Source: Bacillota bacterium (GTDB taxonomy: Bacteria; Bacillota; Clostridia; Lachnospirales; Anaerotignaceae). From it: DNA of 47,470 bases. Position 1 is the first letter of the stretch; the number at the start of each line of letters is the position of its first letter. The position numbers and the translations under genes are program-made. Of the stretch, positions 14,240 to 45,004 are shown piece by piece. The notes under the pieces were generated by a model. That model was not told the origin of the DNA, did no database searches, and saw only the letters and a list, made by a program, of their open reading frames with translations. The stretch covers positions 1-47,470 of the forward strand of contig JAFWDD010000051.1 of NCBI GenBank assembly GCA_017534115.1. Reading direction: 5' to 3'.

Positions 14240-14586
14240 CTCTCCGAGGGCTCAGGGGCGCTGCCCCTAAGAACCCCGTTCAGGGCTCTGCCCTAAAAAC
14301 CCGCAAGGGACTTCGCCCCTTGACCCTGTGTAGTATGTTTGAGACGGTTATCGGCTAAAGGCAAGTTTTCCAAAAATCGAAATCTCAGCCGAAAAACACA
14401 CTATTTCAGTGCGAAGCACTCTATTGAATCCGACAAAGGCGGATTCTTACCACAATTAGCACCTGAAAGGTGCGGCTTCATTAGCGAAGCGTCTTCATTC
14501 CTTCATTTGCGAAGCAAACTTCATTGCGCCGAAGGCGCGCCTCAGCTGCGCTTGCGCAATTTAGCTCGGCGGATCCGAATTTAGCT
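14240..14586 (+). repeat. Composite hairpin repeat, copy A (rpoZ-priA gap)
   Basis: Fixed-order modules: CTCTCCGAGGG head; AGGGGCG/CGCCCCT type hairpin; AAGGGACTTCGCCCCTT hairpin; TGTGTAGTATGTTT; GTGCGAAGCAC; AATCCG...CGGATT; AGCACCTGAAAGGTGCGGCT; CTTCATT-linked GCGAAGC hairpins; GCGCCGAAGGCGC; then two AATTTAGCT-linked hairpins reaching the rpoZ stop. An 18-bp palindrome (TTGGGGCTTAAGCCCCAA, 14211-14228) and an AAGCGGAT/ATCCGCTT hairpin precede it. The element points against the minus-strand genes on either side. Confidence 0.85.
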
Positions 14587-16720: not shown

Positions 16721-16802
16721 CCGGTGCGAAGCACATAAAATAAATCTGCCTAGGGCAGATTTTGACCATAACTGTTCACTATTCAATATTCATTATTCAT
16801 TA
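16721..16802 (+). repeat. Composite hairpin repeat, partial copy L
   Basis: Contains the GTGCGAAGCAC hairpin, the AAATCTGCC/GGCAGATT stem (both strands of the stem changed relative to AATCCG/CGGATT copies), and an A/T-rich module with ATTCATTATTCATT (16766-16802). It lies in the rqcH leader, followed by a CTCTTCCGT/ACGGAAGAG hairpin (16805-16840). Confidence 0.7.
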
Positions 16803-18635: not shown

Positions 18636-19018
18636 CTCTCCGAGGGCTTAGGACTCTCAACCCCAAAATGCTTCTGCTTCACGATGTTTCGCTCCAGCAT
18701 TTTGGGGACCCCTAAGAACCCGCTTAAGGCTCTGCCTTAAGAATCCGCTCTCCGAGAACTCAGGGCTCTGCCCTGAGAACCCGCAAGGGATTTCATCCCT
18801 TGACCCTGTGTAGTATGTTTGGGACAGTAATCGGCTATATTTAAGCTTTTCACTTTCAGAAATTTATCCAATACAAATCCGTCTTTCGGTGCGAAGCACT
18901 TTAATTGAATCCGACAAAGACGGATTCTGACCGCAATTAGCACCTGAAAGGTGCGGCTTCATTAGCGAAGCGTCTTCATTCCTTCATTTGCGAAGCAAAC
19001 TTCATTGCGCCGCAGGCG
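18636..19018 (+). repeat. Composite hairpin repeat, copy B (after rqcH)
   Basis: Full-length copy directly after the rqcH stop: head, two CTCTGC hairpins (TTAAGG...CCTTAA and TCAGGG...CCCTGA), AAGGGATTTCATCCCTT, GTGCGAAGCAC, AATCCGACAAAGACGGATT, AGCACC...GGTGC, CTTCATT-linked GCGAAGC hairpins and GCGCCGCAGGCG. A 47-bp palindrome-ended module is inserted at 18661-18707. Confidence 0.85.
18661..18707 (+). repeat. 47-bp palindrome-ended module inside copy B
   Basis: Begins CCCCAAAATGCT and ends AGCATTTTGGGG: 12-bp perfect terminal inverted repeats around an asymmetric 23-bp core. The same module in reverse orientation lies at 30706-30750 in copy G. Confidence 0.75.
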
Positions 19019-19688: not shown

Positions 19689-19974
19689 TGCGCCTTCGGT
19701 GCAATGAAGTTTGCTGCGCAAATGAAGAAATGAAGACGCTTCACTAATGAAGCCGCCCTTTTGCAAAGGGCTAATTAAGGTCAGAATCCGCCTGAAGTCG
19801 GATTCAATTAAAGTGCTTAGCACTGAAATAGCGTGTTTTTTGTCTGAAATTTCGATTTTCGGAAAGTGTCATTTTAACCGATAACCATCCCTTACTTATT
19901 GCACAGGGTCAAGGGATGAAATCCCTTGCGGGTCCTTAGGGGCAGAGCCCCTGAGCCGCCGGAGGCATAGCCAG
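19689..19974 (-). repeat. Composite hairpin repeat, copy C (nrdR-ylmC gap), inverted
   Basis: Reverse orientation relative to most copies. The modules read in the same order from the minus strand, with variant stems: AGCCCTTTGCAAAAGGGCGGCT, GTGCTAAGCAC, AATCCGACTTCAGGCGGATT, AAGGGATTTCATCCCTT, AGGGGCTCTGCCCCT and GCCTCCGGCGG. It separates nrdR's promoter from the ylmC-like stop. Confidence 0.8.
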
Positions 19975-23131: not shown

Positions 23132-23371
23132 ATGCACCCTGTGAGGGTGCAAATGAATAATGAATATTGAATAATGAACAGTTATGGATAGAATCCGCTG
23201 AAGCGGATTCATATTAAAGTGCCTTCGGCACAATTATAGCAGTACATTTTTTACGAAAAGCTATAATTTGTCAAAAAATTTCAGCCGGCAGTGCGAAGCA
23301 CTCTATTGAATCCGACTTTAGGAGGATTCCGACCTCAATTATTCACTATTCACTATTCATTATTCATTATT
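23132..23371. repeat. Composite hairpin repeat, rearranged copy E (nrdD-nrdG gap)
   Basis: Two half-elements face each other. The left half is inverted: A/T-rich ATTCATT module at 23152-23187, GAATCCGCTGAAGCGGATTC, GTGCCTTCGGCAC. The right half is direct: GTGCGAAGCAC, AATCCGACTTTAGGAGGATT and an ATTCATT module at 23336-23370. The result is a 240-bp imperfect palindrome with the same module at both ends. Confidence 0.75.
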
Positions 23372-28373: not shown

Positions 28374-28802
28374 GTGCCTCCGGCGGCTCTCCGAGGGCTC
28401 AGAGGCTCTGCCTTAAGAATCCGCAAGGGACTTCGCCCCTTGACCCCATGTAGTAAGTAAGGGAATGTTATCGGATATACGTTAGCTTCTCACTTTCGGA
28501 ATCTCACGAGGCTTCTGAATTGTGCCGTAAGCACTTTATTGAATCCGCTTGTCGGATTCCCACCTTAGCTGCGCTTGCGCAATTTCGCTCGCCGAAGGCG
28601 AATTTAGCTCCGAAGGAATTTAGCTCGGCTGAAAGCCGAATTTAGCTTCACCTTTACGGTGCTGGTGCGAAGCACTTTAATTGAATCCGGCTTCAGACGG
28701 ATTCTCACCGAAATTAGTCCCCACCGGGGACGGCTTCATTAGGGCTGAAATCCCGACTTCATTCCTTCATTTGCGAAGCAAACTTCATTGCGCCGCAGGC
28801 GC
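28374..28802 (+). repeat. Composite hairpin repeat, copy F (longest of the two-tail type)
   Basis: Head GCCTCCGGCGG-CTCTCCGAGGG, AAGGGACTTCGCCCCTT, GTGCCGTAAGCAC, AATCCGCTTGTCGGATT, then a tandem array at 28565-28650 with the 9-base linker AATTTAGCT/AATTTCGCT between four different hairpins, then a second GTGCGAAGCAC, AGTCCCCACCGGGGACGGCT and the CTTCATT-linked tail ending GCGCCGCAGGCGC. Lies between convergent genes. Confidence 0.85.
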
Positions 28803-28881: not shown

Positions 28882-29865
28882 CTATTCCTTATTCAATTCA
28901 TATTTCTCATGCGCAATCTCCACATACTCCACCTCTTCCGGGTTCAGCACTGTGAAAAAAGCCTTAAGCACCTTAAAGGCTCCCGTACTATCCGACAGGT
29001 CATGCAATTTCACGCCTGTTCTGCTGTAAGCGTCTATATAATACCCGTTTTTATGTCCCAGACGCACGGTTTTCGCGAAATTGGGGTCGGCCTGCGCCCA
29101 CAAAAACCGTTCCTCGTCGGTTTCGGGCTGCTTTTCAGGGTAAAACCAGCTCGCATAATCGGACTTATTCGCCGAAACATACACATAAAGAGGAGTAAGG
29201 GCTATTTTGCCGTCGAGAATGTTTTCGTTGTCAATATCCATTTCCACCGATTTTCCGACCTTTTCCAGTGTCCATGAAACCGTCAGAGGTTCATCGGGCT
29301 TCCAGATAATTTCATCCAACTCATAGTCCTGCCTGATTTCACCGTTTTCGTCATAGGCTTCCGGCGGGAATTCTTCTTTACTTTGGGAAATCTCCGACAG
29401 TTGTAAATTCAGAGTCATTTCTTCTTCCAATTCAGGTGTATCGAAAGCATAGGTGCCCAAATATGTCAGGGAATTTTTCTCCTCATCGTATCTTAATTCC
29501 GAAGACCCCGAACGATGCAGAGACACCCTGTCCTCCACTGAAAATTCAAACTTTGCGTTTATGGTGTAACCATCCGTCACCTTTCCGATTTCTTCGTCAA
29601 GGTCAGCTTCCGCCAGGATACATATCATGTTCTCATATGCCACAGTCTGAAGCACCCGAAGAGTTGCTCCGTCCTTTTCTTCTTCCGCATATACGTCCTG
29701 AACGCTGTCCTCCAGCAGGTATTTATTGTCTTCTGTAACGGAAAATTTTTCCGCAATTTCGCTCTCCATGTTCACCGAGCTCACGGGCGTCTTGTTCTGG
29801 CCGCAGGCCGAAAGAAAAAGAATCCCGCAAACTGCCGCTATACCAAATTTACGCATATTTCTCAT
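28882..29865 (-). CDS. Predicted lipoprotein, DUF4179-like extracellular region
   Basis: A short N-terminal signal with lipobox LSAC followed by GQN shows export and lipid anchoring at the Cys near residue 20. The mature region of about 305 residues is acidic and beta-rich; its pattern resembles the extracellular domain of clostridial anti-sigma-like proteins (DUF4179), but there is no cytosolic anti-sigma domain. The start is set at 29865 because AAAGGA lies 8 bases upstream and the promoter at 29914-29942 starts transcription after the first in-frame ATG at 29910; 29874 is an alternative. Function unknown. Confidence 0.75.
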   Translation of the reverse strand: MRNMRKFGIAAVCGILFLSACGQNKTPVSSVNMESEIAEKFSVTEDNKYLLEDSVQDVYAEEEKDGATLRVLQTVAYENMICILAEADLDEEIGKVTDGYTINAKFEFSVEDRVSLHRSGSSELRYDEEKNSLTYLGTYAFDTPELEEEMTLNLQLSEISQSKEEFPPEAYDENGEIRQDYELDEIIWKPDEPLTVSWTLEKVGKSVEMDIDNENILDGKIALTPLYVYVSANKSDYASWFYPEKQPETDEERFLWAQADPNFAKTVRLGHKNGYYIDAYSRTGVKLHDLSDSTGAFKVLKAFFTVLNPEEVEYVEIAHEKYELNKE

Positions 29866-30618: not shown

Positions 30619-31008
30619 GTGCCTCCGGCGGCTCTCCGAGGGCTCAGGGCTCTGCCCTGAGAACCCGCTTAAGGCTCTGCCTTAAGAATCCGCAAGCTCG
30701 GGGCTCCCGAAATGCTGGAGCGGAACAACGTGAAGCGGAAGCATTTTGGGATAAGACTTCGCCCCTTGACCCTGTGTAATATGTTAGGGATAGTTATCAG
30801 CTGTATTTAATCTTTTCATTTTCAGTAATTTATCCAATATAAATCCGTCTTTTAGTGCGAAGCACTTTTATTGAATCCGCTTGTCGGATTCTCTCCTTAG
30901 CTGCGCTTGCGCAATTTCGCTCGCCGAAGGCGAATTTAGCTCCGAAGGAATTTCGCTCGGCTATAAGCCGAATTTAGCTTCCCTGCGCCGCAGGCGCACT
31001 TTAGCTTT
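30619..31008 (+). repeat. Composite hairpin repeat, copy G (yigZ-trmD gap)
   Basis: Head GCCTCCGGCGG-CTCTCCGAGGG, TCAGGGCTCTGCCCTGA and TTAAGGCTCTGCCTTAA hairpins, an inserted 45-bp module (30706-30750), GTGCGAAGCAC, AATCCGCTTGTCGGATT, then the AATTTAGCT/AATTTCGCT-linked array (30897-31008) ending seven bases before the trmD stop. Flanking genes both run on the minus strand. Confidence 0.85.
30706..30750 (-). repeat. 45-bp palindrome-ended module inside copy G, inverted
   Basis: Read on the minus strand it begins CCCAAAATGCT and carries the same core as the module at 18661-18707. It interrupts the head region and replaces the first arm of the AAGGG...CCCTT hairpin. Confidence 0.7.
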
Positions 31009-35053: not shown

Positions 35054-35531
35054 CTCTCCGAGGGCTCAGAAGCGCTGGCTATACCTCCGGCGGCTCAGGG
35101 CTCTGCCCTAAGAACTCGCAAGGGATTTCATCCCTTGACCCTGTGTAATAAGCATCGGAAGATTATCGGCTATATTCACTCTTGTGCCGAAGGCACTTTA
35201 ATTGAATCCGCTTGTCGGATTCTGGCCGAAACTGTGCATAATACACACTGTAAATCTTACAATGCCTGCAAATTCAAAAAACCGATAAAACTTTTCCCAA
35301 CTATATTTTGCACAATATCGCGTCCCGAAGGGACCCATCGCTTTGTAAAGCAAACTATCATCCGCCAAAGGCGGCAATCGCCGCGCCCCTTGGGCGTCTG
35401 TGCCGAAGGCACTTTAATTGAATCCGACTTCAGGCGGATTCTGACCATAATTAGCCCTCGCAGAGGGCGGCTTCATAGCGAAGCACTTCATTCCTTCATT
35501 TGCGAAGCAAACTTCATTAGGCAAAAAGCCT
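35054..35531 (+). repeat. Composite hairpin repeat, copy H (longest, three linker types)
   Basis: Starts CTCTCCGAGGG; includes CCTCCGGCGG, TCAGGGCTCTGCCCTAA, AAGGGATTTCATCCCTT, GTGCCGAAGGCAC and AATCCGCTTGTCGGATT. A unique insert at 35235-35397 holds an array of TCCCGAAGGGA, TTTGTAAAGCAAA, CCGCCAAAGGCGG and a GGGCG hairpin separated by ATCGC-like linkers. A second GTGCCGAAGGCAC starts a second element body with AGCCCTCGCAGAGGGCGGCT and the CTTCATT tail. Lies between divergent promoters. Confidence 0.85.
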
Positions 35532-37020: not shown

Positions 37021-37295
37021 CTCTCCGAGGGCTCAGGGGCTCTGCCCCTAAGAACCCCGCAAGGGACTTCGCCCCTTGACCCCGTGTAGTATGTTTGGGA
37101 CGGTTATCTGCTAAAGGCAAGTTTTCCGAAAATCGAAATTTCGGTCGAAATACATGATATTTCAAGTACGTAGCACATAAATTAAATCTGCCGAAGGCGG
37201 ATTTTGACCTAAGCTGCGCCTGTGCAATTTCGCTGCTCGAAGAGCAATTTCGCTCCCAAAAGGGAATTTAGCTCGGCGAAGCCGCCTTTCGCTCC
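37021..37295 (+). repeat. Composite hairpin repeat, copy I
   Basis: Head CTCTCCGAGGG, AGGGGCTCTGCCCCT, AAGGGACTTCGCCCCTT, a GTACGTAGCAC variant, AAATCTGCCGAAGGCGGATT, then a linker array (37211-37295) of GCGCCTGTGC, GCTCGAAGAGC, CCCAAAAGGG and CGGCGAAGCCG separated by AATTTCGCT/AATTTAGCT. Lies between convergent genes. Confidence 0.85.
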
Positions 37296-41184: not shown

Positions 41185-41189
41185 AAAAT

Positions 41190-41487
41190 CTCTCGATGGA
41201 TTTAGGGGCTCTGCCCCTAAGAACCCCGTTTAGGGCTCTGCCCTAAAAACCCGCAAGGGACTTCGCCCCTTGACCCGTGTAATATGTCAGGGATTGTTAT
41301 CGGCTAAAAATATGCTTATCGAAAATCGAATTTTCAGCCATACTATACAACATTTCACGTGCGAAGCACTTTATTGAATCCGCTTGTCGGATTCCGACCT
41401 TAATTAGCCCTTTTTTAAAGGGCGGCTTCATTAGCGAAGCGGCTTCATTCCTTCATTTGCGAAGCAAGCTTCATTGCGCCGAAGGCG
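41190..41487 (+). repeat. Composite hairpin repeat, copy J (upp-uraA gap)
   Basis: Begins with a degenerate CTCTCGATGG head directly after the upp stop; TTAGGGGCTCTGCCCCTAA and TTAGGGCTCTGCCCTAA hairpins, AAGGGACTTCGCCCCTT, GTGCGAAGCAC, AATCCGCTTGTCGGATT, AGCCC...GGGCGGCT and the CTTCATT-linked GCGAAGC tail. Flanking genes and element all point the same way, so it is probably transcribed. Confidence 0.85.
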
Positions 41488-44692: not shown

Positions 44693-45004
44693 CTCTCCGA
44701 GGGCTTAGGCCCTCTGGATACGCCTCCGGCGGCTCTCCGAGGGCTTAAGGCTCTGCCTTAAGAATCCGCAAGGGATTTCATCCCTTGACCCTGTGTAATA
44801 TGCAGGAAAAGGTTATCGGCTATGTTTAAAATTAACGAAAATTGAATTTTTAGCAATGCTTTCTGTTGTTTCCGTGCGAAGCACTTTTATTGAATCCGCC
44901 TTTGCGGATTCTTACCATAATTAGCCCTTTATAAAAGGGCGGCTTCATTAGCAAAGCGTCTTCATTCCTTCATTTGCGAAGCAAACTTCATTGCGCCACA
45001 GGCG
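44693..45004 (+). repeat. Composite hairpin repeat, copy K (before the right TA genes)
   Basis: Two successive heads (CTCTCCGAGGG twice, with GCCTCCGGCGG between), TTAAGGCTCTGCCTTAA, AAGGGATTTCATCCCTT, GTGCGAAGCAC, AATCCGCCTTTGCGGATT, AGCCCTTTATAAAAGGGCGGCT and the CTTCATT tail ending GCGCCACAGGCG. Confidence 0.85.

Follow-up and report, generated by a model that had tools for sequence, protein, structure and literature searches.

The window, the whole stretch of 47,470 nucleotides analysed here, is contig C43 of G000, a genome of 1.86 Mb in 91 contigs. It carries tandem arrays of mini-hairpins separated by the linker AATTTMGCT, and with a probability of roughly two in three these arrays derive from mobile elements that have S23/IVP (PF05635) as their only gene, being themselves one-armed and gene-less. 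PF05635 is the gene of 23S rRNA intervening sequences and its product is a four-helix-bundle protein; to our knowledge it has no known nuclease domain and no known catalytic activity. In other genomes the full element is found either as a two-armed array directly before an IVP gene or as an IVP gene between inverted short-repeat arrays. Unit anatomy, the cognacy of linker and protein, and the presence or absence of whole blocks at two ruv spacers are demonstrated by the comparisons described here.

The exact linker occurs 14 times in the window, every time on the + strand; 100 dinucleotide shuffles gave 2.01 on average and never more than 6. Arrays A, F, G and I hold 2, 4, 4 and 3 of these copies, respectively, and a lone copy is located at 29755; the fourth linker of array I is degenerate (CCTTTCGCT). 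In copy F the hairpins GCGCTTGCGC (28571-28580), CGCCGAAGGCG (28590-28600), CCGAAGG (28610-28616) and CGGCTGAAAGCCG (28626-28638) alternate with linkers beginning at 28581, 28601, 28617 and 28639. An earlier note on this DNA had described copy F in this way and had placed the same arrays in G, I and at the end of A, and both descriptions are confirmed. The window arrays are intergenic, with F and I lying between convergent ORFs. No Rfam family matches anywhere in the window, and none covers the arrays in seven further loci. The features are listed in Table 1.

Table 1. Arrays and associated modules in the window.
Feature	Coordinates	Strand	Remarks
Array F	28571..28647	+	4 hairpins, linkers AATTTCGCT, AATTTAGCT, AATTTAGCT, AATTTAGCT; class AATTTMGCT, one arm
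Array G	30903..30979	+	four-hairpin order as in F, last hairpin CGGCTATAAGCCG
Array I	37216..37284	+	GCGCCTGTGC, GCTCGAAGAGC, CCCAAAAGGG, CGGCGAAGCCG; last linker degenerate
Array A	14548..14586	+	GCGCTTGCGC and CGGCGGATCCG, 2 linkers
Module 5' of array F	28522..28563	+	GTGC..GCAC hairpin, GAATCCG..CGGATTC hairpin
Outer module CTCTCCGAGGGCTC...CGCAAGGGACTTCGCCCCTTGACCC	28385..28456	+	begins directly 3' of intrinsic terminator
CTTCATT-linker array	28734..28789	+	class adjoining the only IVP gene of G000
CTTCATT-linker array	14476..14525	+	
CTTCATT-linker array	18957..19006	+	
CTTCATT-linker array	19703..19752	-	
CTTCATT-linker array	41426..41475	+	
CTTCATT-linker array	44943..44992	+	

Arrays were collected throughout the genome, as the earlier note had proposed. 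The pattern linker-N5..20-linker has 74 matches in G000 (39 forward, 35 reverse) versus 0 for the reversed pattern, and the set that was read (29 genome stretches and the four window arrays) comprises 35 arrays with 91 internal cassettes. Linkers are nearly invariant: 76 of 126 are AATTTAGCT, 37 are AATTTCGCT and 13 have one mismatch, so that 113/126 are exact AATTTMGCT. The cassettes fall into 39 distinct sequences, with 340 of 358 stem pairs formed within cassettes as compared to 1448 of 2902 (50%) when halves of different cassettes are combined; the stems are thus real by this covariation test, and the proposal of a fixed linker with a variable palindromic cassette holds. Cassette loops are GAA in 54, GCA in 19 and GGA in 2 of 91 cases, i.e. 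GNA in 75/91; DNA mini-hairpins of the d(GCGAAGC) type are extra-stable.

The stem types form classes that recur by slot across the 35 arrays, which answers a question the earlier note had raised: slot 1 is mostly GCGCTTGCGC or CGCCGAAGGCG, and the last slot mostly CGGCTGAAAGCCG or CGGCGAAGCCG. By hand count, 26/35 arrays have four hairpins. Since the arrays hardly vary in length, exchange of cassettes takes place mostly within slots, and the suggestion that units are gained and lost one at a time therefore stands only in part. Some unit changes do occur: L230 has an extra two-hairpin block which is missing in its relative L238, and L245 is without its whole right arm. One L030 array does not have a CCGAAGG unit present in the other L030 array; the alignment of the L030 array with L035 can also be explained by the loss of a last unit together with stem growth. 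If the arrays were ordinary satellites, lengthened and shortened through slippage of identical linkers, the block duplication in L230 and the repeated units of a 12-hairpin array in L066 would be accounted for, but such an origin is highly improbable given that four hairpins are so often kept, that the arrays are dispersed to many sites, and that elsewhere they are two-armed with an IVP gene.

The AATTTMGCT arrays seen in G000 are all one-armed. Nearly all are preceded by the GTGC..GCAC and GAATCCG..CGGATTC hairpin module, which occupies the place of the left arm in other genomes. The separate outer module opens several composite repeats of the window (14240-14326, 18636-18800, 28387-28456, 35054-35140, 37021-37107, 41189-41276 and 44693-44810); the modules at 28387 and 37021 lie directly 3' of an intrinsic terminator. 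Hairpin-less TTCACTATTCATTATTCATT-type repeats are located at 16758-16802 and 23325-23369, and in inverted orientation near 23146-23190. These repeats and the hairpin arrays alternate 3' of the same two-hairpin module, and words similar to TTCACTATTCATTATTCATT flank IVP genes in L246 and L259.

A search for three linkers in 84,980 species, each represented by one genome, returned at least 116 stretches. Among the matches listed, most come from gut Clostridia and Oscillospiraceae MAGs, with ruminants as a frequent source, and 95/116 hold at least two palindromic cassettes. The array in these matches is usually two-armed, with AGCKAAATT on the left, a centre near AATTAAATTCGCC..AGCT, AATTTMGCT on the right, and three or four hairpins per arm; the window arrays correspond to the right arm only. 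Some of the 116 stretches are not arrays, e.g. those in Methanosarcina (L058) and Kiritimatiellae (L072). Viral contigs gave 11 three-linker stretches; visual inspection identified a hairpin array in L164 alone, the others being tandem or coding repeats. The longest array seen among the matches listed is the 12-hairpin AATTTAGCT array at L066 3557-3946, which contains repeated cassette blocks. In L059 (6080-6240), a truncated IVP start lies between two two-armed elements, apparently a decayed unit. The conserved word AACCCACTAT[AG]ACACTTTC, which adjoins arrays in the MAG loci L046, L068, L081, L085, L103, L115, L145 and L148, had been taken as a C-terminus and is another non-coding hairpin.

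Modelled as RNA, the two-armed element of L063 adopts a fold in which the linkers of the left arm pair with those of the right and the hairpins protrude (z -4.02). Array F as a folded strand is no more stable than its shuffles (RNA z +0.91, DNA z -0.08), and covariation between left and right linkers (M versus K) is apparently absent, as judged by eye. A rival proposal is that the arrays are selected RNA or DNA regulatory structures (terminators, mRNA stabilisers or supercoiling sites) rather than mobile ends. Conserved stems, the frequent location 3' of terminators and the position of F and I between convergent ORFs all suit such a role; it is nevertheless improbable, as shuffles fold just as well as the one-armed array F, whole blocks are present or absent at ruv sites, and the distribution is sporadic, with palindromic arrays in G000 only within its family (G053 has a single non-palindromic match).

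The link to a protein comes from the genes beside the arrays. The largest cluster of flanking ORFs is S23/IVP (7/175 ORFs among the matches listed), and all seven clustered IVP genes have a two-armed array a short distance 5' of the start codon. From 48 loci picked from L042-L157, with non-Clostridia records left out, 46 genomes were reached, and PF05635 was found in 46/46 (among the matches listed), as compared to 3/57 genomes of the window's family (two over the cut-off) and 10/146 of its order, a comparison confounded by kinship. Of the IVP loci found in array-bearing genomes, 90 were taken, which together with that of G000 gave 91; 82 were parsed first. Two-armed inverted word arrays occur within 400 bases upstream of IVP in 33/79 cases and downstream in 3/77. 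Similarly, a 7-mer is present at least five times upstream in 43/79, downstream in 9/75 and in 2/1580 shuffles. The words linked to IVP genes include ATATMACT, ACTTCAC, CATCATT and ATTTCAY, and hairpin-less repeats such as AATTGACAATTGACA are found on both sides of the gene.

Adding 13 genes from the order and family searches, which were not selected for arrays, gave 104 IVP genes. Under a fixed rule, linker or short-repeat arrays lie beside 73/104 of these versus 7/560 control spots; 31/104 are without an array by this automatic rule, and the unselected order and family set, including the gene of G000, has an array in 3/14 and none in 11/14. Inverted flanks exceed the 99th percentile of 1120 controls in 7/14 unselected and 41/87 other IVP genes, and in a cruder test of 250-base flanks 28/97 exceed the 99th percentile of mismatched pairs, 7 of them above the maximum of those pairs. 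L291 (a weak IVP match that was not located) and loci with too little flank were omitted from the counts, and L304-L314, picked afterwards, were viewed and left uncounted. An intrinsic terminator abuts 13/31 of the IVP two-armed arrays versus 12/620 random positions, and by eye these arrays often follow tRNA genes.

The linker word follows the lineage of the protein. On a tree of the 104 IVP proteins, which is based on a short alignment with few columns, leaves many forks open and includes near-copies that inflate clustering, linker class changes 12 times, as compared to a shuffled mean of 39.6, and a value as low was reached in 0/200 shuffles. IVP genes with AATTTMGCT group together (2 changes for 21 rows), and those with ATATMACT, CTTCATT and ACTTCAC likewise cluster. 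Hairpin-type classes are nearly all in one part of the tree and hairpin-less repeats are mainly outside it. Counted by genome, an association of IVP-linked with dispersed class is indicated for two classes (p about 0.003; CTTCATT 5/6 vs 6/35, ATATMACT 5/5 vs 9/36), but in tests that include the IVP-adjacent array itself; by inspection, the ATATMACT signal is largely lost when that array is removed, with G084 and G095 having only their own arrays.

G000 has a single IVP gene by PF05635, which lies outside the window on contig C86 and is preceded by a two-armed array with the linker AATGAAG/CTTCATT. Its protein sits among the CTTCATT IVPs on the tree and has a match (E 4.5e-30) to PDB chain 2rld_A, which is itself uncharacterised. 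Arrays of the CTTCATT class match at 44 places in G000, including six in the window, and a dispersed one is identical to the IVP-linked array over 32 bases. No AATTTMGCT-class IVP was found in the assembly (95% complete), which is the weakest link for the window. The AATTTMGCT arrays of G000 may for this reason be relics of a lost gene, may have been moved by the CTTCATT IVP, or may belong to a gene that lies in a gap.

Presence or absence as a block can be read at two spacers. Between ruvA and ruvB, G073 has a spacer of 441 bases that contains an IVP gene with AATTGACA-type arrays on both sides; in 13 of the 26 further loci where ruvA was matched the spacer measures 15 to 57 bases, and the remaining 13 are longer, with other or unclear inserts, including a gene-less inverted array in G113. 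The ruvC-ruvA spacer of G116 is 474 bases long and holds an IVP gene flanked by GTTGAGAGTGGAGAG-type arrays, and 16/20 other readable loci have 38 to 87 bases, the exceptions being a gene-less array in G113 and other or longer inserts in L266, L279 and L289. In G113 (L264), both spacers carry gene-less inverted TTAGGA-type arrays. Two IVP genes of G178 (L293 and L301) lie inside 23S rRNA genes (RF02541), flanked by AATTTAGAGGTTAGAAGG-type inverted repeats, and the classic 23S intervening sequences share this array-IVP-array anatomy. Element ends read AATT..AATT in L260 and L293, and the relatives at the ruv spacers are too diverged for a target duplication to be read. An alternative is that the arrays are independent and spread by something else, with IVP genes as parasites inserting preferentially beside or into them. 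Gene-less arrays do far outnumber IVP genes in G000, and in many loci the whole two-armed array lies to one side instead of surrounding the gene; however, linker class tracks IVP phylogeny, and in the ruv spacers the gene is flanked by inverted arrays in a block that most relatives lack entirely, so this alternative is unlikely.

Under the favoured explanation, that the arrays derive from IVP-bearing mobile elements, IVP would recognise its own linker on the inverted arms, and the arm hairpins would allow the DNA or RNA to form a ladder of junctions. The protein would then help to copy the unit and its gene-less arms to new sites, often just 3' of intrinsic terminators, with cutting presumably provided by a host enzyme. 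Cassettes would vary because any stem suffices and identical linkers permit exchange. An IVP of the AATTTMGCT class would have seeded G000 and is now absent from the assembly, where the CTTCATT-class IVP remains. A reverse transcriptase (PF00078) was not found in 29/47 genomes, G000 and G073 included, and judging from the assemblies it is apparently dispensable.

Such a system works like REPIN/RAYT but is unrelated to it. In REPtrons, many gene-less palindromic copies accompany a cognate protein gene that adjoins an array copy (PMC8266576). The same likeness is found here, with dispersed copies cognate to a protein lineage, though of a different family: the RAYT protein is a Y1 HUH transposase whereas IVP is a four-helix bundle, and a constant palindrome with a GTAG/CGTC tag is replaced by the constant linker AATTTMGCT with variable hairpins. 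That the window arrays are themselves REPIN-like elements moved by a Y1 (RAYT/IS200) transposase is very improbable. The arrays are dispersed intergenic palindromes and PF01797 gives two matches in G000, of which one exceeds the cut-off, but both Y1 loci hold 0 AATTTMGC and 1 CTTCATT each, no Y1 gene is near the arrays, the linker has neither a GTAG nor a CGTC tag, and it is IVP that tracks the linker.

MITEs and BIMEs are short and intergenic, with inverted ends and mosaic composites, and the element family described here resembles them. The ends here are instead arrays of 7-9 base linkers, no transposase family was found and no target duplication was seen; terminal inverted repeats are present in the two-armed copies of other genomes and not in the one-armed window copies. 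CRISPR arrays were rejected, since these need non-palindromic unique spacers and the cassettes here are palindromic and reused (39 kinds in 91). The 23S rRNA IVP is named in a figure on CRISPR associations in another paper (PMC10910872). PF05635 resembles Avd of diversity-generating retroelements, according to PMC10053308; a diversity-generating retroelement was rejected, there being no PF00078 match in G000.

The 23S intervening sequences of Coxiella, Leptospira and others have the same gene family, and the 23S copies in G178 have the same inverted short-repeat flanks. RNase III excises such sequences from the rRNA precursor. In contrast to them, the arrays of the window lie between genes, as do most of the IVP genes examined, many arrays consist of hairpin cassettes, and gene-less copies are dispersed; the window arrays are not inside a 23S rRNA gene, as L293 and L301 are, and the window encodes no S23/IVP. 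For Coxiella S23p, PMC4990558 describes tandem GACAGAT heptamers before the start, in 2 or 3 copies by strain, and recalls an old suggestion that the intervening sequence is a mobile element whose gene serves mobility. No publication on IVP-flanking arrays was found in the literature searched, which did not extend to most subscription papers or to any preprints. The observation in the earlier note was right and understated. Neither the two-armed form nor the S23/IVP gene nor the further linker classes could be seen from the letters it had.

More broadly, and with somewhat less assurance than for the window itself, the evidence tilts towards S23/IVP being the hallmark of a large class of mobile elements. 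Each would encode a protein of ~120 residues that recognises the linker of its own lineage, 7-9 bases long, and this protein would spread inverted linker arrays with or without the gene. The classic 23S intervening sequences would be members that landed in rRNA, and hairpin cassettes a derived invention of one IVP clade. If true, S23/IVP, a family without an assigned function, would gain both a function and a way of spreading, and so would the 23S rRNA intervening sequences, whose mobility was only suggested. It would also explain many short intergenic repeats in gut Clostridia and represent a new way for palindromic repeats to multiply, and the pairing of a small protein without a known catalytic site with a short DNA or RNA word would become directly testable.
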